A stretch of 64,000 nucleotides of DNA from Frigoribacterium sp. PhB116 (lineage in GTDB: Bacteria; Actinomycetota; Actinomycetes; Actinomycetales; Microbacteriaceae): assembly GCF_004364285.1 (NCBI RefSeq), contig NZ_SOBE01000002.1:434001-498000 (forward strand), read 5' to 3'. Positions 10,987-62,108 of the stretch are shown here, in pieces (position 1 is the first letter of the stretch; each line of letters begins with the position of its first letter). The notes under the pieces were generated by a model, which saw nothing but the letters and a program-made list of their open reading frames with translations, did not search any database and was not told the DNA's origin. Both the position numbers and the translations under genes were made by a program.

Positions 10987-11046
10987 GAACCTCGTTCCGT
11001 TCAAAGAACCGCGTTGCAACGCGGTTCCTTGAACGGAACGCGGTTC
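10987..11046. repeat. 60-bp nested palindrome, copy a (X = GAACCGCG)
   Basis: Plan 8-11-8-6-8-11-8: X GAACCTCG, Y TTCCGTTCAAA, X GAACCGCG, loop TTGCAA, X' CGCGGTTC, Y' CTTGAACGGAA, X' CGCGGTTC. Arms pair over 27 bases with two mismatches. It lies between the HNH gene and the tRNA gene, 30 bases after the HNH stop, and may end HNH transcription. Confidence 0.9.
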
Positions 11047-11091
11047 TTCGGCGTCCCGAGGAGGGGCGGGCAGCAGGAGGTGCGGGTTCGG

Positions 11092-11097
11092 TAGACT
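11092..11097 (+). promoter_or_regulatory. -10 box of the tRNA gene
   Basis: TAGACT matches the actinobacterial TANNNT -10 and ends 10 bases before the tRNA, a normal distance to a transcript start. The -35 is not clear. Confidence 0.5.
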
Positions 11098-11107
11098 CGC
11101 CCGGTCA

Positions 11108-11179
11108 GCCTCTGTAGCTCAATGGAAGAGCAGTTCCGTCCTAAGGAAAGGGTTGGGGGTTCGAGTCCCTCCAGGGGCA
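11108..11179 (+). tRNA. tRNA-Arg (anticodon CCU)
   Basis: Cloverleaf by eye: acceptor GCCTCTG / CAGGGGC with discriminator A, D-arm with AGCTCAATGG, anticodon loop with CCT flanked as GTCCTAA, T-arm GGGGGTTCGAGTCCC. The CCU anticodon reads AGG, a rare codon in such genomes. CCA is not encoded. It is followed directly by the 86-bp tandem array. Confidence 0.93.
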
Positions 11180-11446
11180 CTCCCTCGCTGACGCTCGCGG
11201 CGCCCCTTCCGGGACTCGAACCCCCGCGGCCCGATGACCCTGCGCGTCATCCCCGTCCAGGGGCACTCCCTCGCTGACGCTCGCGGCGCCCCTTCCGGGA
11301 CTCGAACCCCCGCGGCCCGATGACGCTGCGCGTCATCCCCGTCCAGGGGCACTCCCTCGCTGACGCTCGCGGCGCCCCTTCCGGACCTCGAACCCCCGCG
11401 GCCCCATGACCCTGCGCGTCATCCCCGTCCAGGGGCACTCCCTCGC
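11171..11446. repeat. 86-bp tandem repeats (3 full copies + partial) on the tRNA 3' end
   Basis: Copies begin at 11171, 11257 and 11343, with a partial fourth at 11429, all exactly 86 bases apart and differing at only a few positions. Each begins with the last bases of the tRNA (CCAGGGGCA). Each also contains, inverted, a copy of the T-arm and acceptor segment (GGGACTCGAACCCCC), so tRNA 3' half plus repeat forms a long hairpin. An inner GATGACGCTGCGCGTCATC stem is present. Any protein encoded here would be an artefact of the repeat. No integrase is nearby. Confidence 0.88.
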
Positions 11447-11475
11447 GGGTGCGTGAACCTGCGGTCGACGGGCGG

Positions 11476-12009
11476 CTACCGGCTCGGCGAGCCCGGCAGC
11501 GCCACCGCGTACTTGAAGCCGACGTGCGAGTCGACGAAGCCGAGCCTCAGGTAGAAGCGGTGAGCATCGGTGCGCGCGGCGTCCGACGTCAGCTGCACCA
11601 GGGGCGTGCGGAGCTCGACGGCGGCCCCGTCGACCACCCATCGCATCAGCGCGCTGCCGATGCCGGACGAGCGCTCCGTGCTCGCGACACGGACCGCCTC
11701 GACGAGCAACCGGGTGCTGCCCCGTCGGGTCATGCCGGGGACGACCGTCAGCTGCAGCGTCCCGACGACCACCCCGTCCCGGTCCTCGGCGACGACGAGG
11801 TCGTTGCTCGGGTCATCGACGATGCGACCGAGCGCCGACGCGTACGCGTCCACGTCCTCCTCGTCGGCGACGTCGCCTCGGCCTGCGCTGACCGGGTCGT
11901 CGGCCAGCAGCCGCATGACGGCGTGGAGGTCGTCCGGCACCGCTCGTCGGACGAGCACGTCGGCGCCACGGGCCGAGACGACGACGGGGAGCCTCAGGTC
12001 GCTGATCAT
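11476..12009 (-). CDS. GNAT family N-acetyltransferase
   Basis: A 177-residue Gcn5-related acetyltransferase. The core fold is recognisable from VRRAVPDDLHAVMRLL near the N-terminus, VVGTLQLTVVPGM, the acetyl-CoA loop RSSGIGSALMRW and RFYLRLGFVDSHVGFK at the end. ATG at 12009 is the start that keeps the family N-terminus. The substrate is unknown; small molecules such as amines or antibiotics are typical. It follows the alpha/beta hydrolase gene by 64 bases on the same strand and may be co-transcribed with it. Confidence 0.85.
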   Translation of the reverse strand: MISDLRLPVVVSARGADVLVRRAVPDDLHAVMRLLADDPVSAGRGDVADEEDVDAYASALGRIVDDPSNDLVVAEDRDGVVVGTLQLTVVPGMTRRGSTRLLVEAVRVASTERSSGIGSALMRWVVDGAAVELRTPLVQLTSDAARTDAHRFYLRLGFVDSHVGFKYAVALPGSPSR

Positions 12010-12073
12010 GGTCCATTCTCTCTGCACGCGTCCGCGGCGGAAGGGGGGTGCGGAGCGCTCAGGTGCGGTGCGC

Positions 12074-12937
12074 TCAGGCCTGGTCCGCGAGCCAGTCCCT
12101 GATCGTGCCGGCGACCTCGTCCAGGTGCGACTCGAGGAGGAAGTGCCCGCCGTCGACGAGCTCCACCCGAGCCTCGGGGGAGTCCTCGAGGAACGCGCTC
12201 GCGCCCGCGGCGGCGAAGATCTCGTCGTTGCGTCCCCAGATGGCCAGGACGGGGACGCCGGAGGTGCGGAGCCAGTCGTGGACCGCCGGGTACAGGGCGC
12301 GGTTGGTCGCGTAGTCGCGGAAGAGGTCGAGCTGGACGTCGTCCTGCCCGGGGCGGGCGAGGAGCGCGAGGTCGTGCTCCCAGGCGTCGGGGTCGACGGT
12401 CGTGGGGTCGGGCACGCCGTGGGTGTACTGCCACTCGACGGCCTCCCGCCCGAGCGCGGGGCGGAGCGCGTCGCGGGTCTCGTCGGTCCGCTCGGCGCCG
12501 TCGGCCCAGATCCCGTCCCAGAAGCTCGGCACAAAGCCGTCCTCGTAGGCGTTGCCGTTCTGGGTGATGACGCCCGTGACGGCCGCGGGGTCTGCGAGGG
12601 CGAGACGCCAGCCGATCGGGGCGCCGTAGTCCTGGACGTAGGCCGTGTACCGCTCGATCCCGAGCGTGGAGAGGAACCGTCCGGTCACGGCGGCGAGGGC
12701 CTCGAAGGTGTAGTCGAACTCGTCGGTCGACGGGGCCGACGAGCGACCGAAGCCGAGGTGGTCGGGTGCCACCACGCGGTACCGGTCGGCCAGCGCCGGG
12801 ATGAGGTGCCGGAACATGTGGGAGCTCGACGGGTACCCGTGCAGGAGGAGCAGCACGGGGGCGTCGGCGGGCCCGGCCTCCCGGTAGAACACGTCGTGCC
12901 CGTCGACGGAGACGGTGCGGTGGTGGACGGCGACCAT
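12074..12937 (-). CDS. Alpha/beta hydrolase with Asp nucleophile (epoxide hydrolase / dehalogenase branch)
   Basis: A 287-residue alpha/beta-hydrolase. The oxyanion segment HGYPSSSHMFR is followed by VQDYGAPIG, where the nucleophile elbow carries Asp instead of Ser. That marks the epoxide-hydrolase / haloacid- and haloalkane-dehalogenase branch. The rest of the triad is visible as D in WGRNDEIF and H in DGGHFLLE. The enzyme should therefore act through an ester intermediate on Asp; the substrate is unknown. It is transcribed away from a CGNR-type regulator across an 86-base AT-rich gap, so that protein is its likely repressor or sensor. Confidence 0.88.
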   Translation of the reverse strand: MVAVHHRTVSVDGHDVFYREAGPADAPVLLLLHGYPSSSHMFRHLIPALADRYRVVAPDHLGFGRSSAPSTDEFDYTFEALAAVTGRFLSTLGIERYTAYVQDYGAPIGWRLALADPAAVTGVITQNGNAYEDGFVPSFWDGIWADGAERTDETRDALRPALGREAVEWQYTHGVPDPTTVDPDAWEHDLALLARPGQDDVQLDLFRDYATNRALYPAVHDWLRTSGVPVLAIWGRNDEIFAAAGASAFLEDSPEARVELVDGGHFLLESHLDEVAGTIRDWLADQA

Positions 12938-13023
12938 GAGTAACCCCTTTAAATTGTTTTACCGGTTAGGCGACGGTAGCATGGGTCAGGTCGCGCCGGA
13001 CGGGTGCGAGGAGACGAGGACCG
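12938..13023. promoter_or_regulatory. Divergent promoter region, hydrolase / CGNR regulator
   Basis: The gap holds an AT-rich block (TTTAAATTGTTTTACC) and an ACCGGT palindrome at 12961-12966, unusual in this GC-rich DNA. It is the likely operator for the divergent CGNR protein. Confidence 0.4.
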
Positions 13024-13521
13024 ATGCTGACGGACGAAGAGCTGCTGCTGGCCGTGCTCAACAGCGCCCCGGTGGTGGACGGGCACCCGACGGACGACCT
13101 CGAGGGCGACCAGGGTCGCGAACTGGCCCGGAGCTGGGGAGGCGTCGGCTCGGTCGACGAGGTCGCTCAGCTCCGCCGGGCTCGCGCGGCCCTCCAGGCC
13201 GTGATCCGCGGGGCAGGGCCCGAGGCGGTCGACGAGCTCGCGCGCGTGGTCGAGGGGGCGGTGCGCACGCCTCGCGTCACGTCCGAGGGCGTGGTCTGGG
13301 ACCTCGCCGCGGCGGACGACGACCGCCTCGCGACCACGGCCGTCCTGGCGTGGTCACACGTCGCCGAGCAGTTCCCGGGTCGCGTCCGCGCCTGCGCGAA
13401 CGACGAGTGCAACCTGTTCCTCGTCGACCACAGTCGCCCCGGCACCGCGAAGTGGTGCTCCATGGCGACCTGCGGCAACAGGATGAAGGCCCGAGCGCAC
13501 GCCGGTCGTCTCCGGGCCTGA
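13024..13521 (+). CDS. CGNR zinc-finger family regulator
   Basis: A 165-residue protein with the ABATE/CGNR layout: a helical N-terminal domain (1-115) and a C-terminal zinc finger with Cys pairs CANDEC and CSMATC followed by CGNRMKARAH. The family is thought to bind DNA and to control adjacent stress or detoxification genes. Divergent placement next to the Asp-nucleophile hydrolase supports control of that gene (inference). Length is somewhat short for the family. Confidence 0.85.
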   Translation: MLTDEELLLAVLNSAPVVDGHPTDDLEGDQGRELARSWGGVGSVDEVAQLRRARAALQAVIRGAGPEAVDELARVVEGAVRTPRVTSEGVVWDLAAADDDRLATTAVLAWSHVAEQFPGRVRACANDECNLFLVDHSRPGTAKWCSMATCGNRMKARAHAGRLRA

Positions 13522-13541
13522 CAGGGGCGCTCGTCTGGTCC

Positions 13542-13587
13542 GCGACACGCCCGGGATGTAGACAGCGACACGCCCGGGCTGTACTGT
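13542..13587 (+). promoter_or_regulatory. Promoter with 23-bp direct repeat upstream of rtcB transcript
   Basis: GCGACACGCCCGGG followed by TGTA occurs twice, at 13542 and 13565, 23 bases apart. A housekeeping-type promoter can be drawn through it: TAGACA (13559-13564), 17-base spacer, TACTGT (13582-13587). The second repeat lies in the spacer, so a protein bound there could control initiation. Confidence 0.5.
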
Positions 13588-13660
13588 CGCCTCTCGTGCC
13601 GACAGTCGGCACGCCCGTCGCCTCGTCGACGTCGAGCACCCCGAGAGGGAGGACCGCACC

Positions 13661-13795
13661 GTGTCGAACCGCACCATGACCGACAGCCGTGCACCGCGCC
13701 TCCTCGACGGCCGTGGCCCTGCCTGGTATCTCGCGCAGCACGCACTGCCCGAGCAGCAGCAGACCACCCTGCTCGAACTCGACACCCTCTCGTAG
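13661..13795 (+). CDS. Small ORF, 44 residues, upstream of rtcB
   Basis: GTG at 13661 with GGGAGG 8 bases upstream, ending TAG at 13793. The peptide begins MSNRTMTDSRAPRLLDGRG and has a middle PAWYLAQHALPEQQQ segment ending in a Leu-rich stretch. No family recognised. It lies between a predicted promoter and rtcB (135 bases downstream) on the same strand, so it could be a leader or a small partner protein. Codon use looks like that of ordinary genes here (GC-rich third positions). Confidence 0.45.
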   Translation: MSNRTMTDSRAPRLLDGRGPAWYLAQHALPEQQQTTLLELDTLS

Positions 13796-13930
13796 GCCGC
13801 CCGCGTCACCCGACGCCCCGCGCCCACGAGGGCCGGGGCGCATCTCTCGCATCCACCGACACTGCAGGGTCGGCGTGCGTCCGTCCGCCCCGGACGACGA
13901 CACCCCACCCCACAGAGGACCGAGAGGACC

Positions 13931-15097
13931 ATGGAGAAGATCACTGCCCGGCTGTTCAGCTGGGCCAGCCTGCTCGAGGAGAAGACCGAGCAGCAGGCCA
14001 GGACGACGTCGACGATGCCGTTCATCTACCCGCACCTCGCGCTGATGCCCGACGCCCACCTGGGCCTCGGCGCCACCGTCGGGTCGGTGATCCCGACGCT
14101 CGGCGCCGTGATGCCGGCCGCCGTCGGCGTCGACATCGGCTGCGGCATGATCGCCGTGCGCACGCAGTTCACGGCGGCCGACCTGCCGACCGACCGCAAG
14201 CCGCTGCGCGAGCAGATCGAGCGGGCCGTGCCGACCTCGGCGGGCGCCTACAACCGGAAGGTCGTCGCGACCGCCGAGCCGCGCATAGCCGAGCTCGAGG
14301 CACTGGCGGCCGAGGCCGGCTTCGACCCGGCCTCGTACGCCCGCACCTGGCAGCTGCAGCTCGGCACGCTGGGCAGCGGCAACCACTTCATCGAGGTCAG
14401 CCTCGACGAGACGGACGCCGTCTGGCTGTTCCTGCACTCGGGCAGCCGGGGCGTCGGCAACAAGATCGCCCAGGCGCACATCAAGGTCGCCCAGGCGGCC
14501 ATGAAGCGCTGGTGGATCACGCTGCCCGACCCTGACCTCGCCTACCTCGTCGAGGGCACGGCCGAGTTCGACCGGTACATCGCCGAGCTCGGCTGGGCAC
14601 AGCGCTTCGCCCTGCTCAACCGCGAGGAGATGATGGACAGGGTGGTCCGCCAGTTCGCCGACTGGGTCGGCGTGCCGGTGGAGGAGCAGGAGCGGATCAA
14701 CTGCCACCACAACTTCACGCAGCGCGAGCGACACTTCGGCAAGGACGTGTGGCTCAGCCGCAAGGGCGCCATCTCGGCGAGGGCGGGGCAGGCCGGGCTG
14801 GTCCCCGGCAGCATGGGCACCGCCTCCTACGTGGTCGAGGGCAAGGGGAACCCCGTCGCCCTCGAGTCGTCGCCGCACGGCGCCGGCCGGGCGTACTCGC
14901 GGAGCGCGGCCCGCAAGGCGTTCACGCACGACGAGCTCCGCACCGCGATGGAGGGGATCGAGTACCGCGACACCGACGCGTTCCTCGACGAGATCCCCGC
15001 GGCGTACAAGCCGATCGACCAGGTGATGGCGGACGCGGCCGAGCTCGTCACGATCCGCCACACGCTGCGGCAGATCGTCAACGTGAAGGGCGACTAG
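13931..15097 (+). CDS. rtcB: RtcB family RNA ligase
   Basis: A 388-residue RtcB ligase, which joins 2',3'-cyclic phosphate or 3'-phosphate RNA ends to 5'-OH ends using GTP and Mn2+. Metal and guanylylation motifs are visible: MPDAHLGLGATVG, VGVDIGCGM, GSGNHFIEV, FLHSGSRGVG, NCHHNF and PGSMGTASYVVEGKG. The C-terminus carries the EIPAAYKPIDQVMADAAELV segment. Length fits the shorter RtcB group common in actinobacteria. No archease or RtcA gene is adjacent; a 44-residue ORF precedes it. Likely role: RNA repair or tRNA healing after damage. Confidence 0.94.
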   Translation: MEKITARLFSWASLLEEKTEQQARTTSTMPFIYPHLALMPDAHLGLGATVGSVIPTLGAVMPAAVGVDIGCGMIAVRTQFTAADLPTDRKPLREQIERAVPTSAGAYNRKVVATAEPRIAELEALAAEAGFDPASYARTWQLQLGTLGSGNHFIEVSLDETDAVWLFLHSGSRGVGNKIAQAHIKVAQAAMKRWWITLPDPDLAYLVEGTAEFDRYIAELGWAQRFALLNREEMMDRVVRQFADWVGVPVEEQERINCHHNFTQRERHFGKDVWLSRKGAISARAGQAGLVPGSMGTASYVVEGKGNPVALESSPHGAGRAYSRSAARKAFTHDELRTAMEGIEYRDTDAFLDEIPAAYKPIDQVMADAAELVTIRHTLRQIVNVKGD

Positions 15098-15108
15098 CAG
15101 GGCACCGA

Positions 15109-15149
15109 GGAGGTGCGGGCCGGGTCGCCGGGACCCGGTCGGCACCTCC
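15109..15149 (+). terminator. Terminator hairpin after rtcB
   Basis: Stem GGAGGTGC-GGGCCGGGTC with its complement GACCCGGTC-GCACCTCC around GCCGG, 12 bases after the rtcB stop. No T-run. Confidence 0.75.
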
Positions 15150-15303
15150 CGGGGCCAAGACAGCGACGGTGCTGCGGGGGACCCCTCCCCAGGGCTGACT
15201 TCCCTGCCCGTGATCCCCACGGCCCGGTCGGGGGCCTGCGCCGGCGGCGTCGCGCGTGACAGGGTCGTGGTGACCCCGGCCCCGATCTCGAGGAGACCCG
15301 CCC

Positions 15304-16233
15304 ATGCCGACCACGTTCCCGTTCGGCCGCGTCAGGCCGATCATGCTCCGGGTGGTGATCGCCTCCCTCGTGGTGGCGGCGGTCGTGGCCATCGTCTCGA
15401 TCGCCACGGCGAACTTCGGCGACACCTCGTGGCGCCTGATCGGCACAGCCGTGCTCTTCACGGCCTTCGCCCTCTTCTCCTGGTACGACGCAGACGTGTC
15501 GTCCCGGCGCAGCTCGGCCTTCGCCGTCGTCAGCTTCAGCGTCTCGATCTACCTGTTCGTCGCGGGCATGGCGAAGATCTGGGCTCCGGCACGGACGCTC
15601 GCCGACCCGGACGGCTACGCCCCGTGGTCGCCGTTCGACGGGTTCCTCGGCTGGGTGCTCCTCGCCGTGATCGCGCGGGTGGCGCTGTTGCACGTGCACC
15701 TCGTGCTGGCCATCGGGGCTCGCCTCCGGTACCGCGTCATGTCCGTGGTCACGACGGTGACGCTCGTGCTCGTGGGCACGTTGGCCGCGCTGCTCACCCT
15801 GCCGGTGCTGTTCACGTGGTTCGACGTCCACGAGACGTACTGGCGGGCGGTCGGCGTCGTGGCCGTGCTCGACGCCCTCGGCACGGTGCTCGTGCCGCTC
15901 GGGTACCAGCTGTTCGCCGGGGCGTCGCCGCGGGGTGGGTCCGAGGGTGGCACAGCCCGGGCCGGTGTGACGTCGGTGCCGTCCGAGCAGCAGGCAGGTG
16001 CGTGGACGACGGGCGCACCTGGTCCCGAGGCCGAGTCTGCCGCCTCCTCGGCGGGGTTCCGGCCGCCCGCGACGGCGTACGCGCGCCCGGGGCAGCGGTC
16101 GCTCCAGTGGCCGCGCTACGACGACGGCACGCTGCTGCCGGTGGGGGCCGACGGCGGCCCGGACTTCCGAGGGGTCGTCGGGTACGACGACTGGGCACAG
16201 CAGCAGCAGGGCACCGGGAGCCGCCCGCTGTGA
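15304..16233 (+). CDS. Multi-pass membrane protein of unknown function
   Basis: A 309-residue protein. About five or six hydrophobic helices occupy residues 12-205. Residues 205-309 are a Gly/Ala/Pro-rich, probably disordered cytoplasmic tail ending in a Tyr/Asp/Gln-rich piece. ATG at 15304 follows a GAGGAGA-type ribosome site. I do not recognise a transporter or enzyme motif. It precedes a PAP2 phosphatase gene by 32 bases in the same direction and may share its transcript. Confidence 0.75.
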   Translation: MPTTFPFGRVRPIMLRVVIASLVVAAVVAIVSIATANFGDTSWRLIGTAVLFTAFALFSWYDADVSSRRSSAFAVVSFSVSIYLFVAGMAKIWAPARTLADPDGYAPWSPFDGFLGWVLLAVIARVALLHVHLVLAIGARLRYRVMSVVTTVTLVLVGTLAALLTLPVLFTWFDVHETYWRAVGVVAVLDALGTVLVPLGYQLFAGASPRGGSEGGTARAGVTSVPSEQQAGAWTTGAPGPEAESAASSAGFRPPATAYARPGQRSLQWPRYDDGTLLPVGADGGPDFRGVVGYDDWAQQQQGTGSRPL

Positions 16234-16265
16234 GGCGGGGACGACCGGGGAGGCAGACTGGTCCC

Positions 16266-17114
16266 ATGACGCGCACCTCTGATGCTGCCGGCACGACGAC
16301 CCCCAGGACCGGCCCCTTCCGCGGCGGCGGCCCGTCAGCTCGGGCGGACCGGCGGATCGGGCAGCGCGACCTCACCGAGTGGCGCAGCCCGGCGGGGCGG
16401 CGGCTCGCGTCGCAGCACCGCGAGATCGCCAAGCGCGTCGGCGCCCGCCGGGCGCTCGTCGGCACGCTCGCCGTGGGCGGGAGCGTCCTCGCCGCGGCGA
16501 CCGTGGGGGCCGCCTACATCTACGACGGAGTCACCGACCGCGACGGCATCGGCCGCCTCGACCGGCCGGCGCTGGAGAAGGCGAAGGCGCTGCGCTCGCC
16601 CGTCGTCAACGGCGCGGCCGCGACCATCGCCCACGTCTTCGGCCCGATCGCCATGCCGCTGCTCACCGTCAGCGCGGCGGTGGCCTTCGGCGTGCGCGAC
16701 CGGCGGGCCAACCCCGTGACGCTGATCGTGGCCGCGGGAGCCGGGTCGCTCGCCATGACGCTGATCGGCAAGAAGCTGATCGCCCGCAACCGGCCGCCGC
16801 AGCACGAGGCCATCCCGCCCTTCGAGAAGTCGCCGTCGTTCCCGTCGGGGCACACGCTCAACACGACGACGATCCTCGGCGTTCTCGCCTACCTCGTGGC
16901 CCTGCGGCAGGAGAAGAACGGTCCCCAGGTGGCCGTCATCGGCGGGGCGGCCGCCGCTGCGGTCACCGTCGGCCTCTCGCGGGTGCTGCTCGGAGCGCAC
17001 TGGTTCACCGACGTCGCCGTCGGCTGGGTGACCGGCACCGGCTGGCTCTCGCTGATCATCACGAGCCACCGGCTCTACCTCAGCGCCCAGGACGACGCGG
17101 AGATCGCCGAGTAG
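16266..17114 (+). CDS. PAP2-family membrane phosphatase
   Basis: A 282-residue type 2 phosphatidic acid phosphatase. The three catalytic motifs are present in order: KLIARNRPP (K-x6-RP), FPSGHT (PSGH) and SRVLLGAHWFTDV (SR-x5-H-x3-D). The N-terminal 55 residues are basic and polar; several hydrophobic helices follow. Enzymes of this family remove phosphate from undecaprenyl pyrophosphate or other lipid phosphates at the outer membrane face. The exact substrate is not predictable. Confidence 0.9.
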   Translation: MTRTSDAAGTTTPRTGPFRGGGPSARADRRIGQRDLTEWRSPAGRRLASQHREIAKRVGARRALVGTLAVGGSVLAAATVGAAYIYDGVTDRDGIGRLDRPALEKAKALRSPVVNGAAATIAHVFGPIAMPLLTVSAAVAFGVRDRRANPVTLIVAAGAGSLAMTLIGKKLIARNRPPQHEAIPPFEKSPSFPSGHTLNTTTILGVLAYLVALRQEKNGPQVAVIGGAAAAAVTVGLSRVLLGAHWFTDVAVGWVTGTGWLSLIITSHRLYLSAQDDAEIAE

Positions 17115-17137
17115 CCGAGCCGAGCCGAGCCGAGCCG
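17113..17137. repeat. Five-unit AGCCG tandem repeat at PAP2 stop codon
   Basis: AGCCG repeated five times, starting on the last bases of the TAG stop and followed by CCGGCCCGG. It lies between convergent genes (PAP2 and RidA). Confidence 0.85.
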
Positions 17138-17181
17138 AGCCCGGCCCGGCCTCGGCCCGCTGTGGGCGGGTCTCCCTCGTC

Positions 17182-17592
17182 TCAGTCGAGTATCGCGTAC
17201 GCCTCGAGCTCGACCAGGACGTCGGGCTCGAAGAGGAAGTCGACGCCGATCGCCGACACCGGGGGCAAGGGAGTCGGCAGGTCGAGCTCGTCGGCGACCA
17301 GCGCCATGCCGGCCGTGAAGTCGGCGAACATCTCGGGCGTCGAGCCGGTGAGGAAGAAGCGGAGCCGGACGACGTCCGAGAAATCGGCCCCGGCGGCGGC
17401 GAGCCCGCGGTGCGCGTTGCGGAGCACCTGGGCCACCTGCTGCGCGAGGTCGCCGGGGAACAGGCGGCGGCCCTCGCCGTCGCGCGCGATCTGGCCCGCG
17501 ACGTGCACGTGCCGGGAGCCGGTCGCGATCGAGACGTGGTCGTAGGGGACGGGTTGGAACATGCCCTCGGGGCTCAGGGTCTGGACGGTCAT
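17182..17592 (-). CDS. RidA/YjgF family protein
   Basis: A 136-residue RidA-like protein. The fold signature is seen in HVHVAGQIARD (strand with the active-site Gly), VAQVLRNAHRGLAAAGADFSDVVRLRFFL and the C-terminal VLVELEAYAILD. Family members hydrolyse reactive enamines/imines or have diverged to other roles. The conserved Arg that binds the carboxylate in true RidA is not obvious in the usual IRVEVE context, so deaminase activity is uncertain. It is divergent from an HxlR-type regulator that probably controls it. Confidence 0.88.
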   Translation of the reverse strand: MTVQTLSPEGMFQPVPYDHVSIATGSRHVHVAGQIARDGEGRRLFPGDLAQQVAQVLRNAHRGLAAAGADFSDVVRLRFFLTGSTPEMFADFTAGMALVADELDLPTPLPPVSAIGVDFLFEPDVLVELEAYAILD

Positions 17593-17705
17593 CTCAGGGC
17601 TTCCTCTCGTGGCACGACGCGAGGGGCGACGCCGTTCGTCGCGGGTCGTCGTGGTTCCCTCTGTCTACCTGGTGCACGAGAGGCACCTCAACGAGACTAG
17701 GTGGC

Positions 17706-18086
17706 ATGGACGACACCGCCTCCCCTGCCGGCCCCGAGCTGCTGCACGTCGACGCCCCGCACCGCGAGCTGCTCGACGAGCTGCTCGACAAGTGGTCGCT
17801 GCAGGTGCTCGACCAGCTCTGCGAGCGTCCGCTCCGCTTCAACGAGCTGCGCCGAGTCGTGCCCGCGGTCGGCCAGAAGTCGCTGACGGCCACGCTCCGT
17901 CGGCTCGAGCGCAACGGGATGGTCGAGCGCGTCGTGCTGCAGACCAGGCCGATCGCCGTGGAGTACCGCATCGCCCCGATCGGCGACTCGCTCAACGAGC
18001 TCGTCGACGCCCTGCTGACCTGGACGAGCCGGAACTTGCCCGAGGTCGAGCGCGCACGCGCCCGCTACGACGCCGAGGTCCTCTAG
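17706..18086 (+). CDS. HxlR family transcriptional regulator
   Basis: A 126-residue winged-helix regulator. The HxlR core is clear: KWSLQVLDQLCERPLRFNELRRVVPAVGQKSLTATLRRLERNGMVERVV, then the wing with VEYRIAPIGDSL. The redox-sensing N-terminal Cys of some HxlR proteins is absent; the only Cys is in QLCERP. It is divergent from the RidA-like gene across 113 bases. The stop codon's last base is the first base of nested palindrome copy d. Confidence 0.9.
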   Translation: MDDTASPAGPELLHVDAPHRELLDELLDKWSLQVLDQLCERPLRFNELRRVVPAVGQKSLTATLRRLERNGMVERVVLQTRPIAVEYRIAPIGDSLNELVDALLTWTSRNLPEVERARARYDAEVL

Positions 18087-18145
18087 CACCGCCGAGTGGA
18101 CGGAGCACCGCCCACCCCGGCGGTGTTCGGTTCACTCGACGGTGT
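18086..18145. repeat. 60-bp nested palindrome, copy d (X = GCACCGCC)
   Basis: Plan 8-11-8-6-8-11-8: X GCACCGCC, Y GAGTGGACGGA, X GCACCGCC, loop CACCCC, X' GGCGGTGT, Y' TCGGTTCACTC, X' GACGGTGT. It begins on the G of the HxlR stop codon and lies between convergent genes. Confidence 0.85.
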
Positions 18146-18187
18146 CCGAGTTGCCCGGACGCCCGGAGTCGTGGAGGTGCGGGTCGC

Positions 18188-18619
18188 CTAGAAGACAGCA
18201 GTCACGGCCAGGGCCAGCACCGCCACCAGGGCGATCGCCGCGACGACCCGCGACGTGCCCATGACGAGTCGGCGCCGGCGCCCGGGGACCCAGTCGTCGT
18301 CGTCCGCGTCGCGCAGCTCGGGCGGCAGCTCGGCCTCGCGAAGCCGGGCGGCGCGCTCCCGGCGCTGCCGCTCGGCGGCCTCGAGCTCCCGCTGCCGCAG
18401 CGCCTCGACCTCGCGGTCGTGCTCGAGGTAGAGCTCGAGCTCGCGGTGCCGCTCCTCCGACCAGGCGTCCAGGTCGGACGCAGGAGGCGCCTCCTGGGCG
18501 ACCGCGTCGGTCACCGGGCGTTCCCGCCCCGCCTCGCGCGCCTCCTCGGCCGGTCCCGTCGCGGGACCGCCCTCGGGCAGGTCGGCAGGCAGGTCGTCGG
18601 GGTGACCGTCGTGTCGCAT
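18188..18619 (-). CDS. C-terminally membrane-anchored coiled-coil protein
   Basis: A 143-residue protein. The N-terminal half is acidic and Pro/Ala-rich. Residues about 55-105 are an Arg/Glu-rich heptad-like helix (EALRQRELEAAERQRRERAA). After a basic stretch (GRRRRLVM) a single hydrophobic helix ends the protein (about 122-143). This suggests a cytoplasmic helical domain on a C-terminal anchor. No family recognised. It is separated from the HxlR gene by nested palindrome d. Confidence 0.7.
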   Translation of the reverse strand: MRHDGHPDDLPADLPEGGPATGPAEEAREAGRERPVTDAVAQEAPPASDLDAWSEERHRELELYLEHDREVEALRQRELEAAERQRRERAARLREAELPPELRDADDDDWVPGRRRRLVMGTSRVVAAIALVAVLALAVTAVF

Positions 18620-18835
18620 GGGGGTCCTTCGCGCCGGGGACGTGCGGGGAGCAGCGTGCACGGACAGCGTACGTCGCGGCTGCTCCACACGGGAGACACG
18701 CACCCGGCTGGGAACGGTCTCCGAGGTCCCGCGTCGGGAGCCGTGCATCCGGGGCGCCCGGGGGAGCAGTGTGGGCGGAGCACCACCCCCGCTCGACTCG
18801 TGTCGGCCCAGGCCGACGGACGGAAGGAGCCACTC

Positions 18836-19333: not shown

Positions 19334-19353
19334 GCGCACCCCTCGCTCGTGCA

Positions 19354-36652: not shown

Positions 36653-36720
36653 GAGGGCGGGTCATCCGCGTCGAGGGCGGGTCCGCGCTGACCCGCCCTC
36701 GACGACGATGACCCGCCCTC
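36653..36720. repeat. 68-bp nested palindrome, copy f (X = GAGGGCGGGTC)
   Basis: Plan 11-9-11-6-11-9-11: X GAGGGCGGGTC twice, Y ATCCGCGTC, loop CGCGCT, X' GACCCGCCCTC twice, Y' GACGACGAT. All four X copies are identical. It lies between the convergent LAxTG and sortase genes, beside a separate terminator hairpin. Confidence 0.88.
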
Positions 36721-41189: not shown

Positions 41190-41235
41190 GGAGCCTGAGG
41201 CGCCCGACGGGCCGCCTCCCGGGCCACCGGGACTC

Positions 41236-41293
41236 CGGGCGGGTTCGTCTCGGGCGGGCCGTCACGACTGCCCGTTCGGGACGAACTCGCCCG
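41236..41293. repeat. 58-bp nested palindrome, copy e (X = CGGGCGGG-like)
   Basis: Plan 8-11-8-4-8-11-8: X CGGGCGGG, Y TTCGTCTCGGG, X CGGGCCGT, loop CACG, X' ACTGCCCG, Y' TTCGGGACGAA, X' CTCGCCCG. More degenerate than the other copies. It lies between the convergent lipid kinase and oxidoreductase genes. Confidence 0.7.
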
Positions 41294-41330
41294 TGCTCCG
41301 GTGGGTGTCAGCCAGTGCCGGCCAGCGGCC

Positions 41331-53197: not shown

Positions 53198-53198
53198 C

Positions 53199-55436: not shown

Positions 55437-57436
55437 GCGCCGTCGTCACGTGGCCGACGGAGGGCATCGCCTTCGGGGGCGACTACAACCCGGAGCAGTG
55501 GGACTGGGACGTGCTGCTCGAGGACGTCGAGCTGATGCGCGAGGCCGGAGTCGGCTTCGTCACCGTCGGCGTGTTCTCGTGGATCAAGCACGAGCCGCGT
55601 GACGGCGCGTTCGACTTCGACTGGCTCGACCGGGTGCTCGACCTGCTGCACGAGAACGGCATCCGGGTCGACCTCGCCACCCCCACGGCGTCGGTGCCCA
55701 TGTGGCTGCACCGCCTGCACCCGGAGATCCTGCCCCAGGACGCGCACGGACACCCTCTCGCCCCCGGCGGCCGCCTCGGGTTCTGCCCGTCGTCGACGGT
55801 CTTCCGGCGCTACGCGCTGCGCGTCGTCGAGGCGCTCGCCGCGCACGTCGCAGGCCACCCGGCGGTGCGGCTGTGGCACGTGAGCAACGAGCTCGGCGGC
55901 GGCAACGCCCGGTGCCACTGCCCTGTCTCGGAGGCGGCCTTCCAGTCGTGGGTCGAGGCCAGGCACGGCACGGTCGAGGCCCTGAACACCGCCTGGGGCA
56001 CGGCGTTCTGGGGCAACTCGTACTCGTCGTTCGACGAGGTCACGACACCCCGGGGCATCACGGCGCACAACCCGGGTCAGCTGCTCGACTACGAGCGCTT
56101 CTCGTCGGACGCGCTGCTCGACTGCTACCGGGCCGAGGCTGCCGTGCTGCGTCGTGTGACGCCCGAGGTGCCGGTGACGACCAACTTCATGGTCGGTCTC
56201 GGGCCCGACGTCGTCGACTACCCCCGGTGGGCCGACGAGGTCGACATCGTGGTGAACGACCACTACACCTACGGCCCCGACCCGATGAAGCACCAGGAGC
56301 TCGCCTTCGCGGGCGACCGCATGAGGGGCATCTCGGGAGGCGGCCCGTGGCTCCTGATGGAGCACGCGACGGGCGGCTCGACCTGGCACCCGGTCAGCCA
56401 GCCCAAGGGGCCCGGCGAGCTGGTGCGGCACGCGCTCGGGCACGTGGCGCGCGGCTCGGACAGCGTCATGTACTTCCAGTGGCGTGCGTCACGATCGGGG
56501 ACCGAGCAGTTCCACTCGGCGATGCTGCCCCACTCCGGCCCCGAGTCGCGCACGTTCCGGCAGATCGTGGCGCTCGGCGCGGACCTGGCTCGTCTGGCCG
56601 AGGTCGCCGGGAGCCGTGTCGTCGGCGCGAGGGTCGCGCTGCTGCACGACGACGAGGCGGGCTGGGCCCTGCGCAGCGGCCACAAGCCCGCCGTACAGCT
56701 GGACTACGCCACCACAGCCAGGGCGGTCCATGCGGCGCTGTTCGAGCGGTCGGTCACCGTCGACGTGGTGCCGCCGTGGCACCCCCTCGACGACTACGAC
56801 CTCGTCGTCGTGCCGGGGCTGTTCCTCGTCGACGACACGACGCCCGCCGCCGTGGCCGCTGCTGCTGAGCGGGGCGCCACGGTGCTCGTGACCTGGTTCT
56901 CCGGCATCGTCGACGAGACCAACTCGGTCAGGACCGGTGGTCATCCCGGTGCGTTCCGCGACCTCCTCGGCGTGCGCGGCGACGACTTCTGGCCCCTCGA
57001 CGAGACCGAGGTCGTCGAGCTCGACACCGGCTGGCGCGCCCGCCGGTGGACGGAGCACGTCACGGCGACGACCGCCGAGGTGGTGGCGTCCTACACGACC
57101 GGCGGCGTCTCCGGCGGGGCGGCCGTGACCCGGCGCCCGGTCGGTTCGGGCTCGGCCTGGTACCTCGCCTCGGACCTCGAGCCCGCAGGCCTCGGCGAGT
57201 TGGTGGATCGGCTGCTCGACGAGGTCGGGATCAGCCCGGCGGCGGCGACGTCGCCCGGCGTGGAGGCCGTCCGGCGCGCCTCGGACGAGGGGTCGTGGCT
57301 GTTCGTGCTCAACCACGCCGAGTCGGAGGGCTGGGCCGAGGTAGCCGGCACCGACCTCCTGACCGGCGCGGTGTGCGCAGGGCGCGTCGTGGTGCCCGCC
57401 GGCGGGGTCGCGGTCGTGCGTGAGGCATGTCCGTAG
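55433..57436 (+). CDS. Beta-galactosidase (GH42)
   Basis: A 667-residue family 42 enzyme. N-terminal barrel GGDYNPEQWDWDVLLEDVELMREAGV, acid/base E153 (HVSNELGG), the zinc-type Cys cluster around ARCHCPVSEAA, and nucleophile E310 (LLMEHATG), followed by the trimerisation domain (DLVVVPGLFLVDD) and a C-terminal beta domain. GTG at 55433 overlaps the GH36 stop (GTGA). Cytoplasmic. It splits beta-galactosides delivered by the operon's transporter. Last gene of the operon. Confidence 0.94.
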   Translation: MSAVVTWPTEGIAFGGDYNPEQWDWDVLLEDVELMREAGVGFVTVGVFSWIKHEPRDGAFDFDWLDRVLDLLHENGIRVDLATPTASVPMWLHRLHPEILPQDAHGHPLAPGGRLGFCPSSTVFRRYALRVVEALAAHVAGHPAVRLWHVSNELGGGNARCHCPVSEAAFQSWVEARHGTVEALNTAWGTAFWGNSYSSFDEVTTPRGITAHNPGQLLDYERFSSDALLDCYRAEAAVLRRVTPEVPVTTNFMVGLGPDVVDYPRWADEVDIVVNDHYTYGPDPMKHQELAFAGDRMRGISGGGPWLLMEHATGGSTWHPVSQPKGPGELVRHALGHVARGSDSVMYFQWRASRSGTEQFHSAMLPHSGPESRTFRQIVALGADLARLAEVAGSRVVGARVALLHDDEAGWALRSGHKPAVQLDYATTARAVHAALFERSVTVDVVPPWHPLDDYDLVVVPGLFLVDDTTPAAVAAAAERGATVLVTWFSGIVDETNSVRTGGHPGAFRDLLGVRGDDFWPLDETEVVELDTGWRARRWTEHVTATTAEVVASYTTGGVSGGAAVTRRPVGSGSAWYLASDLEPAGLGELVDRLLDEVGISPAAATSPGVEAVRRASDEGSWLFVLNHAESEGWAEVAGTDLLTGAVCAGRVVVPAGGVAVVREACP

Positions 57437-57466
57437 CCCCACCCTGAATCGGAGTCGGCCGCCGGC

Positions 57467-58240
57467 TCAGCGCCAGCGGTACTCGTGCTCGGGACGGCCC
57501 GGCGCGCCGTACCGGGGCACCCGGTCGACCTGGCCCGCGTCGGCGAGGTGCTCGAGGTAGCGACGGGCCGTGACGCGGGAGACGGCGACGGCCGCGGCGA
57601 CCTCGCCGGCCGACAGCGCGCCTCCTCGGGGCTGCCCCTGCTCGTCGTCGAGAGCAGGAGACGCGCGGACCGCCGGGTCCGACGCGGTCCGCAGCGCCTC
57701 GACGACGGCGGCGAGCGTCTCCGGGGCGATCCCCTTCGCGAGCGAGGGGGCGGCGGTCGTGCGCAGCGTCGCGAGGCTCGCGTCGACCTCGGTCTGGGTG
57801 ACCTGCCCCTCGCCCTGGTCGAGCCCGCGGCGGAACGCGAGGTAGCCGGTGAGCCGCTCCGCGAAGGTCGCGAAGCCGAACGGCTTGATCAGGTACTGCA
57901 CGATCCCGAGCGACACCGCGCTCTTGACGACCGCGACGTCGCGCACCGCTGTGATCGCGACGACGTCGACCGTCGAGCCGGCGGCCCTCAGTGCTCGGCA
58001 GAGCTGGATCCCGTGGATGTCGGGCAGGGTCAGGTCGAGCAGCACGAGGTCCACGCCCGGCTGTCGCAGCCTGTCGAGCGCGGACCGGCCGTCGTGCACC
58101 ACGCCGACCAGCTCGAACCCGTCGAGCCGCGTGACGTACGCGCCGTGAGCCTCGGCCGTGAGCGGCTCGTCGTCGACGACGAGCACGCGCACCGGGGGCG
58201 TCGTCGGGGGCAGGGGCCGGGACGAGGAGGCGTCGGTCAC
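57467..58240 (-). CDS. CitB/DcuR-type response regulator
   Basis: A 257-residue response regulator. Receiver domain about 17-140 with D23/D24, phospho-acceptor D69 (LVLLDLTLPD) and K119 (YLIKPFGF). The C-terminal part has a helix-turn-helix (LSAGEVAAAVAVSRVTARRYLEHLADAGQVDRV) of the CitB/DctR kind. GTG at 58240 overlaps the kinase gene stop. Together with the kinase it should switch on the divergent dctA C4-dicarboxylate transporter gene (inference from family and position). Confidence 0.92.
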   Translation of the reverse strand: MTDASSSRPLPPTTPPVRVLVVDDEPLTAEAHGAYVTRLDGFELVGVVHDGRSALDRLRQPGVDLVLLDLTLPDIHGIQLCRALRAAGSTVDVVAITAVRDVAVVKSAVSLGIVQYLIKPFGFATFAERLTGYLAFRRGLDQGEGQVTQTEVDASLATLRTTAAPSLAKGIAPETLAAVVEALRTASDPAVRASPALDDEQGQPRGGALSAGEVAAAVAVSRVTARRYLEHLADAGQVDRVPRYGAPGRPEHEYRWR

Positions 58241-60030
58241 GACCGCACCACCGCCTCCTCGTCGTCGGGCAGGTCGACCGTGATCGTGGTCCCGTGCACC
58301 GTCGAGCGGGCGTCGACGGTGCCGCCCGCCCGCCGCGCGACCTGGGCCACGAGCGCGAGGCCGATGCCGCGCCCCTCGGCGCCCCCGGGCTTGGTGCTGA
58401 CGCCGCGCGCGAAGACGTCTCGCCCCTCGGGCAGCCCGGGTCCGCTGTCGGAGACGGCGATCCGCACGACGCCCGGTGCCGGCCGCGCGAGCACGACGCT
58501 CACGGTCGCGGTGCGGGATGAACCGCGTTCCGAACCATGAACTGCGTTCTTTCGCGGTTCATGGTTCGGAACGCGGTTCGAGGTGTCCGCCTCCACGTCG
58601 GCCTCGGTACCCGCCCCCGCGTCCGCCCAGCGCGGCGCCGCCGCGTCGAGCGCGTTGTCCACGAGGTTGCCGAGCACCGTCACGAGGTCGCGAACGGGCA
58701 CCCGAGGCGTGCCGAAGCCGGGCGAGACGTGCAGCTCGAGCTCGACGGCTCGCTCCCGCGCCTGGGCGCTCTTGCCGAGCAGCAGCGCCGCGAGCACCGG
58801 CTCGTCGACGGCGGCCACGACCTGGTCGGCGAGCACCTGGCCGAGGTCCAGCTCGTCCGAGGCGAAGCGGAGCGCGTCGTCGGCACGGCCCAGCTCGATC
58901 AGGGCGACGATCGTGTGCAGCCGGTTCGCGAACTCGTGGGTCTGGGAGCGCAGGGCCGCCGAGAGGGTGCTCATCGTCCGGAGCTCGTCGGTGAGCTGCC
59001 GAAGCTCGGTGTGGTCGCGCAGGGTGGTGACCGTCCCGAGGGCGCGACCCGCGCCTCCTCGGCCCCCGACTGCTCCCCGCCCCATCGCGCCACGCCCGAC
59101 CGCGACCCGCCCGCCGCCTGCCCCTGCGGCCGGCGCCGCCGCCACCCGCTGGTTCACGACGAGCACGCGGTCGTCGGCGACGTGCACCTCGTCCTGCGCC
59201 TCGTCGCCCCCGGCGAGCAGCGCGGCCAACGACGTCGGCAGCGCGAGCTCGGAGACCGGCACGGGACGCCGCCCGACGTCGTCGACGAGCGACGGCAGCC
59301 CGAGCAGGAGCGCCGCGTGGTCGTTCGCGAGCGTGATCCGCCCCTGCTCGTCGACGAGCACGAGCCCCTCGCCGACCGAGTGCAGCACCGCCTCGTGGTG
59401 GTCGCTGACCCGGCCCAGCTCCTCGGCGCCGAGACCGCGGGTGACCCGCCGGAGGTGGCGGCTGAGCAGCCACGCCGCCAGCGCCCCGAGGGCGACGGTC
59501 GCGAGGGCCCCGCCGACGAGCAGGGGGAGGCGGTGGCCGAGCGCCGCGGAGACGCTGTCGACCGTCACGCCCGCGGCCACGAGGGCGACGACGTCCCCCG
59601 CGTCGTCGAGCACGGGCACGACGGCGCGGACCGAGGGCCCGAGGGTGCCCGAGTACGTCTCGGTGAACGACCGCCCGGCGAGCGCGGGGGCGATCGTGCC
59701 GATGAACGGCCGCCCGATCTCGGCGGGGTCGGGATGCGTGAGGCGGGTGCGGTCGGGCGTCATCACGGTCACGAAGTCGGTGTCGGTGTCGCGCATCAGG
59801 TCGAGCGCGTACGGCTCGAGCACGGCGGACGGGTCGTCCGTGTCGAGGGCCTCGAGCACGAACGGGTTGTCGGCGATCGAGGTCGCGAGGGCGGTGCAGC
59901 GGGCAGCGGCCGCGCGCTCGGTGTCGGTGCGCGCGCTCGTCCACTGCCACCCCCCGGCGACGAGGGCGAGCACGACGACGCCGACGACCTGCAGGGCGAA
60001 CAGGCGGGTGGCGATGCTGGCGCGGCGCAT
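58237..60030 (-). CDS. CitA/DcuS-type sensor histidine kinase
   Basis: A 597-residue kinase. Two membrane helices (about 9-30 and 170-192) bracket an extracytoplasmic PASC-like sensor (LMRDTDTDFVTVMTPDRTRLTHPDPAEIGRPF). A cytoplasmic PAS (about 210-290), a Gly/Arg/Ala low-complexity insert (about 300-335) and the phospho-acceptor H365 (RSQTHEFANRLHT) follow. The ATPase domain has N-box NLVDNALDAAAP, DSGPGLP and GRGIGLALV. Residues about 484-504 are encoded by a 60-bp nested palindrome inserted in frame between the N-box and the next strand. It senses C4-dicarboxylates or citrate by family. Confidence 0.92.
   Translation of the reverse strand: MRRASIATRLFALQVVGVVVLALVAGGWQWTSARTDTERAAAARCTALATSIADNPFVLEALDTDDPSAVLEPYALDLMRDTDTDFVTVMTPDRTRLTHPDPAEIGRPFIGTIAPALAGRSFTETYSGTLGPSVRAVVPVLDDAGDVVALVAAGVTVDSVSAALGHRLPLLVGGALATVALGALAAWLLSRHLRRVTRGLGAEELGRVSDHHEAVLHSVGEGLVLVDEQGRITLANDHAALLLGLPSLVDDVGRRPVPVSELALPTSLAALLAGGDEAQDEVHVADDRVLVVNQRVAAAPAAGAGGGRVAVGRGAMGRGAVGGRGGAGRALGTVTTLRDHTELRQLTDELRTMSTLSAALRSQTHEFANRLHTIVALIELGRADDALRFASDELDLGQVLADQVVAAVDEPVLAALLLGKSAQARERAVELELHVSPGFGTPRVPVRDLVTVLGNLVDNALDAAAPRWADAGAGTEADVEADTSNRVPNHEPRKNAVHGSERGSSRTATVSVVLARPAPGVVRIAVSDSGPGLPEGRDVFARGVSTKPGGAEGRGIGLALVAQVARRAGGTVDARSTVHGTTITVDLPDDEEAVVRS
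58520..58579. repeat. 60-bp nested palindrome, copy b, inside the kinase gene (X = GAACCGCG)
   Basis: Plan 8-11-8-6-8-11-8: X GAACCGCG, Y TTCCGAACCAT, X GAACTGCG, loop TTCTTT, X' CGCGGTTC, Y' ATGGTTCGGAA, X' CGCGGTTC. One mismatch in 27 bp. It shares the X word with copy a. Being 60 bases and stop-free in the kinase frame, it adds 20 codons without a frameshift. Confidence 0.92.
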
Positions 60031-60054
60031 CGGACTGCCGGACGGTCCGGTCGC

Positions 60055-60375
60055 CTAGAGGACGGGCTCGACCAGCCGCACGTGCGAGACGGCGACGCGC
60101 GTCGGCTCCCCGGCGAACGCCGCGGCTCGCGCCTCGGACGCCAGGTACTCGGCCTCGAGCGCGAGGAACGCCTCGGCGTCGCCGGGAGCGCTGACGGCCC
60201 AGGTGAACTCGTCGACGTCGCGGTCGGCGTACGCGAACTCGATCGTGAAGCCCGAGGAGGTGCGGGCCGGCACGAGCCGGGAGGTGAACCAGGCGACGAA
60301 GTCGTCGAGCACCCCGGGGGCGAGCTCGTAGCGGCGCAGCTGGACGGTCTTCGTGGTGACGTCGTCGTCGGTCAT
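60055..60375 (-). CDS. NIPSNAP-like dimeric alpha/beta-barrel protein
   Basis: A 106-residue protein with the ferredoxin-like pattern of NIPSNAP/DABB proteins: VQLRRYELAPGVLDDFVAWFTSRLVPARTSSGFTIEFAYADRDVDEFTWAVSA, ending with a strand and LVEPVL. Biochemical role unknown. It lies just upstream of the kinase gene on the same strand (24 bases) and is divergent from dctA. Confidence 0.82.
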   Translation of the reverse strand: MTDDDVTTKTVQLRRYELAPGVLDDFVAWFTSRLVPARTSSGFTIEFAYADRDVDEFTWAVSAPGDAEAFLALEAEYLASEARAAAFAGEPTRVAVSHVRLVEPVL

Positions 60376-60528
60376 GGCGCCACCCTAGCGACCGCCGCGG
60401 ACACGTCCGAGTCCGCCGCGAACACTATGAACGCAAGCTCGTGCGGCGAGCGCACCGAGGTCATGCTGGCCCGATCCACCCGCCGACCGGCGACGACGTC
60501 GTCCCGGTCACGAGCACGAGGACCACCG

Positions 60529-62007
60529 ATGGCAACGACGCCCTCCCCCCGAGACGACACGATCCACCGTTCGCCCCTCTCGCGCCTCCGGCGGATCGAG
60601 AAGTCGCACTGGCTCTACATCGCCGTGATCGTCGCGGTAGGGGCCGGCATCCTCGTCGGCCTGACGGCGCCCGACGTCGCGGTGCAGCTGAAGCCGATCG
60701 GCACCGCGTTCGTCTCGCTGATCTCGATGATGATCGCGCCGGTGATCTTCTGCACGATCGTGCTCGGCGTCGGCTCGATCGCGAAGGCGGCGACGGTCGG
60801 CAAGGTCGGCGGGCTCGCGCTCGGCTACTTCATCGCGATGTCGACCTTCGCCCTGGCGATCGGCCTCGTCGTCGGCAACCTGATCCACCCCGGCGAGGGC
60901 CTGATGGTCGGCAGCACCGGCTACGAGGCCCCCGCGAGCGAGGAGGCGGGCGGCACCGCCGGCTTCCTGCTCGGCATCATCCCCGAGACCCTCGTGTCGT
61001 CGCTGACCAGCGGCTCGATCCTGCAGACGCTCTTCGTCGCCTTGCTCGTCGGCTTCGCGCTTCAGCGGATGGGCGCGCGCGGCGCGACGATCCTCGAGGG
61101 GGTCCGCAACCTGCAGGTGCTGGTGTTCCGCATCCTCGCGATGATCATGTGGGTCGCCCCGATCGGCGCGTTCGGCGCCATCGCGGCCGTCGTCGGAGAG
61201 ACCGGCGTCGCGGCGATCGTCGCCTTGGCGACCCTGATGGTCGCGTTCTACGTCACCTGCATCGTGTTCGTCGCGGGCGTGCTCGGCACGGTGCTAAAGC
61301 TCGTCACGGGCATCAACATCTTCCGGGTGATGCGCTACCTCGGCCGCGAGTACCTGCTGATCGTGTCGACCTCGTCGAGCGAGGTGGCCCTGCCCCGCCT
61401 GATCGCGAAGATGGAGCACCTCGGCGTCTCGAAGCCCGTCGTCGGCATCACGGTGCCCACCGGCTACTCGTTCAACCTCGACGGCACCGCGATCTACCTG
61501 ACGATGGCGTCGCTGTTCATCGCCAACGCGATGGGCACGCCGCTGAGCGTGGGGGAGCAGCTCTCGCTGCTGCTCTTCATGATGATCGCCTCGAAGGGCG
61601 CCGCAGGCGTCACCGGCGCCGGCATCGCCACCCTCGCCGGAGGGCTGCAGGCGCACCGGCCCGACCTGGTCGACGGCGTCGGCGTGATCGTCGGCATCGA
61701 CCGCTTCATGTCGGAGGCCCGCGCCCTGACGAACTTCACCGGCAACGCGGTCGCGACGCTGCTCGTCGGCACCTGGACCCGCGAGGTCGACACGGACCAG
61801 GTCGAGCGCGTGCTCGGCGGCCGGTCGCCCTTCGACGAGTCGACGATGAGCGCCGACGGCCACGGCGACGCGGCACGCGCGGCCGCCACGGGGGCCGGTG
61901 CCGAGGAGGCGGCGGCCGAGACCACGGGACCGGCGCGCGACGACCGCATCTCGACCGACACCGTGCGGACGATCGTCGGCGGCGACGAGCGGGTCCCAAG
62001 GCGCTGA
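60529..62007 (+). CDS. dctA: C4-dicarboxylate/cation symporter
   Basis: A 492-residue DAACS-family transporter importing succinate, fumarate or malate with cations. Typical segments are HWLYIAVIVAVGAGILVGL, SLISMMIAPVIFCTIVLGVGSI, the Ser-rich hairpin VSTSSSEVALPRLIAKM, VPTGYSFNLDGTAIYL and GVIVGIDRFMSEARALTNFTGNAVAT. ATG at 60529 is chosen from the family N-terminus. The Ala/Glu-rich C-tail is about 40 residues longer than usual. The divergent CitA/DcuS-type system next door is its likely regulator. Confidence 0.95.
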   Translation: MATTPSPRDDTIHRSPLSRLRRIEKSHWLYIAVIVAVGAGILVGLTAPDVAVQLKPIGTAFVSLISMMIAPVIFCTIVLGVGSIAKAATVGKVGGLALGYFIAMSTFALAIGLVVGNLIHPGEGLMVGSTGYEAPASEEAGGTAGFLLGIIPETLVSSLTSGSILQTLFVALLVGFALQRMGARGATILEGVRNLQVLVFRILAMIMWVAPIGAFGAIAAVVGETGVAAIVALATLMVAFYVTCIVFVAGVLGTVLKLVTGINIFRVMRYLGREYLLIVSTSSSEVALPRLIAKMEHLGVSKPVVGITVPTGYSFNLDGTAIYLTMASLFIANAMGTPLSVGEQLSLLLFMMIASKGAAGVTGAGIATLAGGLQAHRPDLVDGVGVIVGIDRFMSEARALTNFTGNAVATLLVGTWTREVDTDQVERVLGGRSPFDESTMSADGHGDAARAAATGAGAEEAAAETTGPARDDRISTDTVRTIVGGDERVPRR

Positions 62008-62048
62008 CCTGCGGCGGCGCGCGCCGTCGCCGTCGTCGCCAGCGCGAA

Positions 62049-62108
62049 GCACCCCGTAGTGGACGATGCACCCCGGAACGACGGGGTGCACGGTCCACTA
62101 CGGGGTGC
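62049..62108. repeat. 60-bp nested palindrome, copy c (X = GCACCCCG)
   Basis: Plan 8-11-8-6-8-11-8: X GCACCCCG, Y TAGTGGACGAT, X GCACCCCG, loop GAACGA, X' CGGGGTGC, Y' ACGGTCCACTA, X' CGGGGTGC. All four X copies are identical. It lies between the convergent dctA and hsp20/small-ORF genes. Y resembles that of copy d. Confidence 0.93.

Follow-up and report, generated by a model that had tools for sequence, protein, structure and literature searches.

The closest described counterparts of the elements reported here are the REPtrons, in which repetitive extragenic palindromic (REP) sequences or REPINs are combined with a RAYT gene. In the portions of the sources drawn on here, RAYT genes are characterized as vertically inherited single-copy genes linked to REPINs, whose replication rates are very low (PMC8049555), and as flanked by REPs (PMC3733652). 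In a 64,000-nt stretch of Frigoribacterium sp. PhB116 (contig NZ_SOBE01000002.1, positions 434,001 to 498,000; referred to as the window), six palindromic elements (E1 to E6) were analyzed. These are rather probably scattered copies of the palindromes that a chromosomal nuclease family recognizes, and thereby part of a REP/RAYT-like system with an unrelated enzyme. As in the REPtrons, so far as these are outlined in the same portions (PMC8049555, PMC3733652), the hairpin repeats are dispersed and mostly intergenic, a cognate single gene lies between copies of these repeats and keeps a fixed chromosomal place, and slow-moving copies track it. In contrast to REPtrons, the enzyme is a putative AbiEi + Vsr-like nuclease and not a Y1/HUH transposase, and the repeats are 60-bp X-Y-X palindromes, unlike REPs, which are 20-40 bp long and carry a GTAG tag. 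The Y1 (HUH) transposase family PF01797 was found in none of the 16 genomes of the genus, with positive results in 5 of 14 controls, and a RAYT/Y1 transposase was rejected as the partner because of this absence. Since the arrangement resembles a REPtron in every general respect but lacks the Y1 transposase, it would work like a REPtron without being one.

The nuclease gene lies outside the window, so that this explanation of the elements is not visible from the window alone. On contig C4 of the window's genome (G000; 3.37 Mb, 8 contigs), two copies of palindrome family A (GAACCGCG-TTCCGAACCAT-GAACCGCG) are located 1214 bp apart and enclose a single gene, and a pair with equal spacing was found in genome G015. 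The N-terminal part of the gene product is AbiEi-like in structure and profiles, and the C-terminal part, a putative nuclease-like domain with conserved acidic residues, appears to resemble Vsr/homing endonucleases. DUF559, the first candidate for the C-terminal domain, was not supported, as it was not among the families reported by Pfam for the 22 homologues. NCBIfam yielded no meaningful match, and a sequence search of solved structures returned none.

A protein search of the 16 genomes resulted in 30 homologous loci in Frigoribacterium, to which G005 and G006 contribute two near-duplicate pairs. Palindromes were counted as brackets if they were 44 bp or longer and no more than 450 bp away from the match. 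Such brackets were found on both sides of 17 loci, on one side of 9 and on neither side of 4. For 61 loci of other genera (Naasia, Actinomyces, Bifidobacterium, Rothia, Galactobacter and more), the respective numbers were 11, 11 and 39, and 34 of the 44 palindromes present in 510 kb fall into the 15% adjoining the gene (binomial 6e-20, with palindromes treated as independent). The nuclease is the sole gene between the brackets, and its recognition of the palindromes is strongly implied. In the Actinomyces loci L131 and L133, which belong to two species, the palindromes of the upstream brackets are flipped relative to each other, with loops that are reverse-complementary relative to the gene.

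The plan X8-Y11-X8-N6-X8'-Y11'-X8' is a hallmark of the nuclease brackets. In both sets of loci, the outer 8 bases have a self-identity peak at offset 19 that no other offset comes near. The self-identity at this offset was 0.76 in Frigoribacterium compared to 0.28 in shuffles (z = 18.3; 35 palindromes of 21 loci, including one low-complexity artefact, L073 left) and 0.50 compared to 0.27 in the other genera (z = 7.6; 34 palindromes of 22 loci). These z values are overstated because related palindromes are not independent, yet the set from the other genera has different sequences. The recurrence of X at offset 19 suggests that the protein reads X as its box, at two positions in each arm. The initial annotation had taken the elements for a defined class and not for ordinary terminators, and the presence of this peak in the brackets, inside as well as outside the genus, bears this out.

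The palindromes co-vary with the nuclease. The similarity between left and right brackets was 0.88 within a locus and 0.48 to other loci (25 loci, including one low-complexity artefact). Twelve homologues, one per species, are located at the same chromosomal place, where the flanks are 85-97% identical whereas the nucleases are just 50-84% identical to that of G000. The nuclease-like gene is fast-changing. For the 11 of the 12 loci with a usable palindrome, palindrome similarity was correlated with nuclease identity (r = 0.82, p = 0.0002), compared to r = 0.23 for flank identity. Between G012 and G000, for instance, the flanks are 95-96% identical, the nuclease is 50% identical and the palindrome is different.

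The elements of the window and the one gene that carries such an element are as follows:

10987..11046, no strand: E1, 60 bp, 25 of 27 arm pairs, X-X identity 7/8 and 8/8
18086..18145, no strand: E2, family C (GCACCGCC/GAGTGGAC), 60 bp, 22 of 27 arm pairs, X-X identity 8/8 and 7/8
36653..36720, no strand: E6, family D (GAGGGCGGGTC), 68-70 bp variant, period 20, repeat 13/15
41236..41293, no strand: E5, family G (CGGGCGGGTTCGTC), 58-bp variant, best internal period 15
58237..60030, minus strand: sensor histidine kinase gene (sCache_3_2, PAS, HATPase_c; Pfam), with E3 within the HATPase_c region
58520..58579, no strand: E3, family A (GAACCGCG-TTCCGAACCAT), 60 bp, 26 of 27 arm pairs, X-X identity 7/8 and 8/8
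62049..62108, no strand: E4, family B (GCACCCCG-TAGTGGACGAT), 60 bp, 25 of 27 arm pairs, X-X identity 8/8 and 8/8

The elements at 10987, 18086, 58520 and 62049 had been annotated as exactly 60 bp long and built on the X-Y-X plan, which was confirmed with 22 to 26 of 27 arm pairs. The 58-bp and 68-bp elements assigned to the same plan are present, but they are variants with periods of 15 and 20 and not exact cases. E6 does not pass the 60-bp scan, and E5 passes it only weakly, as 41235-41294 (21 of 27 pairs, X-X identity 6/8 and 6/8). The six elements do not form a single sequence family, but at least five families with a common plan. Not all of them are located between genes: E3 lies in frame inside the kinase gene and is translated as an inserted stretch; the HATPase_c match of the kinase covers residues 447-590 for 107 profile positions (Pfam). 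The first base of E2 is the final base of an open reading frame (17706-18086).

For five of the six elements, a similar palindrome was found at a nuclease gene. The similarity was 0.97 between E3 and the bracket of the C4 nuclease, 0.89 between E4 and the palindrome beside the second G003 nuclease (L073; shuffle maximum 0.60), 0.88 between E1 and the bracket of nuclease L067 of G003 (shuffle maximum 0.58), 0.78 between E5 and the palindrome beside the homologue L084 of the window's own genome (shuffle maximum 0.61), and 0.73 between E2 and the bracket of nuclease L075 (shuffle maximum 0.60). For E6 no bracketing nuclease was found; a low-complexity run gave its top similarity, 0.55 (shuffle maximum 0.59). 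Further members of its family D were identified at C2:20302, C2:300687, C4:2003 and C4:65421. The only Rfam match above the gathering score in the window was a tRNA, and known RNA families were rejected for the elements. The tRNA-Arg(CCT), followed by a 24-nt inverted copy of its own 3' part at 11202-11225 (88% complementary; together 11108-11225), adjoins E1 and an HNH endonuclease gene (10462-10956). The inverted copy could be an integration-site remnant.

A BLAST search with E1 returned further full-length 60-bp copies. Family A was found with 36 strand matches at 18 places in the window's genome and with matches in 7 of the 16 same-genus genomes, this one included. The other families have the plan in common with it, not the sequence. 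Copies of family A are directional, with NTCG at one foot in 18 of 25 copies and at both feet in none. The motif after one foot reads NTCG(C/T)G, and a purine-rich (R)(W)GG motif follows the other, with 18 of 25 copies marked on one side only. No GTAG tag was found at the hairpin foot in the listed family A flanks.

Copy numbers of three bracket types (P, Q and R) cover both strands of the 16 genomes. Type P was most frequent in G003 (30 copies) and G010 (20), followed by G015 (10), and type Q in G014 (41), G005 (23), G008 (22) and G006 (21), followed by G002 (14). For type R, 30 copies were found in G009, 28 each in G004, G008 and G011, 20 in G006, 16 in G005 and 10 in G013. Genomes whose main nuclease has a given bracket type lead or tie in copies of that type. 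Many type R copies are also located in genomes whose main nuclease has no R bracket, and these are read as left over from former alleles. Outside the genus, dispersed copies, some of them partial, were found at 16 places in A. succiniciruminis and 19 in A. johnsonii, and B. phasiani gave six pattern matches, three of them close together, compared to none for the reversed control.

For the genome-wide analysis, 864 kb of the genome were scanned for plan matches, defined by at least 21 of 27 pairs and an X-X identity of at least 6/8 in both arms. A lack of excess over dinucleotide-shuffled sequence, which would have refuted the initial annotation, was not observed, as 34 plan matches compare to none in all 20 shuffles. 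Without the X-X condition, 68 palindromes of 60 bp were identified, compared to 0-3 per dinucleotide-preserving shuffle. The plan matches are located between convergent (19), tandem (11) and divergent (3) genes and in one case within a gene. These contexts were taken from a simple purpose-made gene caller that ignores RNA genes, and the element at 10987 is scored as convergent although the tRNA-Arg intervenes.

The location of most copies at 3' ends and not at promoters, and of one copy within a coding region, argues against the protein being an AbiEi-type transcription factor only, whose own operators flank its gene and whose dispersed copies represent a regulon or serve titration. The AbiEi-like N-terminal part and the close co-variation of bracket and protein would fit such a regulator, but the C-terminal nuclease-like domain with its conserved acidic residues is left unexplained, and we consider this explanation unlikely.

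Convergent gaps make up 15% of the intergenic DNA but hold 19 of the 34 plan matches, which could reflect a role, independent of any dedicated enzyme, as bidirectional terminators or as hairpins that stabilise the mRNAs of convergent genes. However, a T run is absent after either end of the elements (flanks of the six window elements and 25 family A copies), distinct simpler hairpins are found at gene ends (2615, 6964 and 138789 of C2), and the exact length, the X-X repeat, the near-identical copies, the intragenic copy and the nuclease brackets would remain unexplained. Such a role is therefore quite unlikely, and simple intrinsic terminators were rejected on account of the missing T run and the separate hairpin class. 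This second class is about 36-40 bp long with a GGAGGCGCGG-like foot, lies at convergent gene ends (G000:C2 2615-2650, 6964-7000 and 138789-138827) and probably represents the ordinary terminators of the genome. These short hairpins sometimes share one gap with plan elements.

Syntenic sites were compared with thresholds set by the analyst and with non-plan palindromes included. From G000 to G015 (23 sites), 18 had the same type, 4 a different type and 1 none; in the opposite direction (33 sites), the numbers were 19, 7 and 7. At C4:30635, a C-type element is located where G015 has an A-type element, and the last 12 bases of an A element remain alongside. Within the kinase gene, G000 and G015 share a type A element, G012 carries an element of another type at the same position, and G003 lacks a palindrome. 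At 99% identity nearly all sites are common. Between G005 and G006, a palindrome of G005 is present in truncated form in G006, and a clear palindrome stands at one site, in a rearranged gap, in G006 only. The sites are thus old and their content is slow to change, with same-place replacement apparently at least as common as new insertion, which would favor conversion over free transposition.

The brackets are both direct and inverted repeats, and in G003 (L067) and G010 (L065) the nuclease and its two palindromes are jointly inverted in place with respect to the conserved neighbours. This would agree with a whole unit that moved and left solo palindromes by bracket recombination, like solo long terminal repeats. 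The identical chromosomal place of the gene in 12 main-clade loci and the lack of a full-unit/solo-palindrome pair between genomes among the sites compared make such relics very unlikely. Patchy copies, type turnover and in-frame insertion would also fit miniature inverted-repeat elements moved by an ordinary transposase, with the nuclease as cargo or chance neighbour, but this is the least probable of the explanations, since the nuclease is the only gene inside the brackets, other genera show the association as well, with palindromes that are unrelated in sequence, and no Y1 transposase was found in the 16 genomes, in a search that did not extend to DDE transposases. No target-site duplication was obvious in the listed family A flanks, which were viewed without a formal duplication test.

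The preferred reading as recognition palindromes builds on the observed family, plan, gene bracketing, co-variation, dispersed copies, type switching at orthologous sites and in-frame intragenic copy, from which we infer binding and cutting of the palindrome by the protein, the resulting spread or conversion and all of the chemistry. The AbiEi-like winged-helix part most likely reads the X boxes, of which there are two per arm, 19 bp apart, and four per palindrome. The Vsr/homing-endonuclease-like domain most likely introduces a nick into palindromes that are extruded as hairpins or encountered in single-stranded DNA. The nick would be repaired from another copy, or the hairpin would rarely be transferred to a new place, which would keep copies palindromic and alike and convert old copies to the type of the resident nuclease. 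New sites may be seeded occasionally, mostly at gene ends, at which insertion is tolerated. We tentatively propose, without yet calling it probable, a new class of selfish or domesticated repeat system of Actinomycetes, in which an AbiEi-Vsr nuclease would nick extruded hairpins, convert or seed sites and thereby drive its own X-Y-X palindromes through the genome, and in which a change of the nuclease allele at one locus would rewrite the palindromes of the genome. Such an enzyme would spread palindromes without being an HUH enzyme or, as far as tested, any known transposase.

Some of the findings are weak or negative. Empty sites are almost absent between the closest pair, G005 and G006, and compensatory changes are few (2 of 21 changed pairs; six orthologous pairs, G000 compared to G015). 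The association in other genera comes from one conserved-motif scan and thus from a biased subset, and some of its 34 palindromes may be ordinary terminators (for example, L152, L167, L172, L181, L184 and the second of L156).

Among further described systems, AbiE toxin-antitoxin shares with the nuclease the match of the N-terminal part to AbiEi. An AbiE toxin-antitoxin pair was rejected, as AbiEii (PF08843) was found only in G014 among the 16 genomes, at a distance of about 26 kb from the nuclease locus there. In contrast to EDxHD/Vsr-like homing endonucleases (I-Bth0305I), there is no intron or intein, the gene is bracketed by its own palindromes and copies are located at many sites. The CGTC REPs and the Rickettsia palindromic elements, as covered in the relevant portion of PMC3733652, are likewise palindromic repeats with no known transposase, some of them intragenic and one tagged at one end; they differ in sequence and plan, and a cognate gene was found here. 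PATEs and small mobile repeats of Haloquadratum are, according to the part of PMC3119063 concerned, also short mobile palindrome-bearing repeats without a gene of their own. PATEs were rejected, since they are described there as IS605-type elements and the present palindromes are not. By term counts, RAYT, nuclease and transposase do not occur in the RepRanger survey.

Altogether, the data point to a repeat-plus-enzyme system in several actinobacterial groups for which no description was found in the open-access literature, subscription journals and preprints being outside this scope; within the same limits, the earlier statement that no named repeat with such an architecture is known stands. 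If the system is real, the REP/RAYT-style arrangement of repeat and enzyme arose twice in bacteria, with unrelated enzymes, and actinobacterial proteins usually annotated as AbiEi-like antitoxins would gain a substrate that can be read straight from the genome. The birth, likeness and retention of short palindromes in genomes, a long-standing question, would become directly testable: each locus supplies an enzyme together with the matching substrate, and the natural allele pairs, of which there are dozens, permit specificity swaps.

Finally, a ladder of BLAST matches at G000:C4 ~167300-172900 and G015:C1 ~820980-826940 marks a long tandem array with a period near 267 bp, which is probably a large repetitive protein gene.
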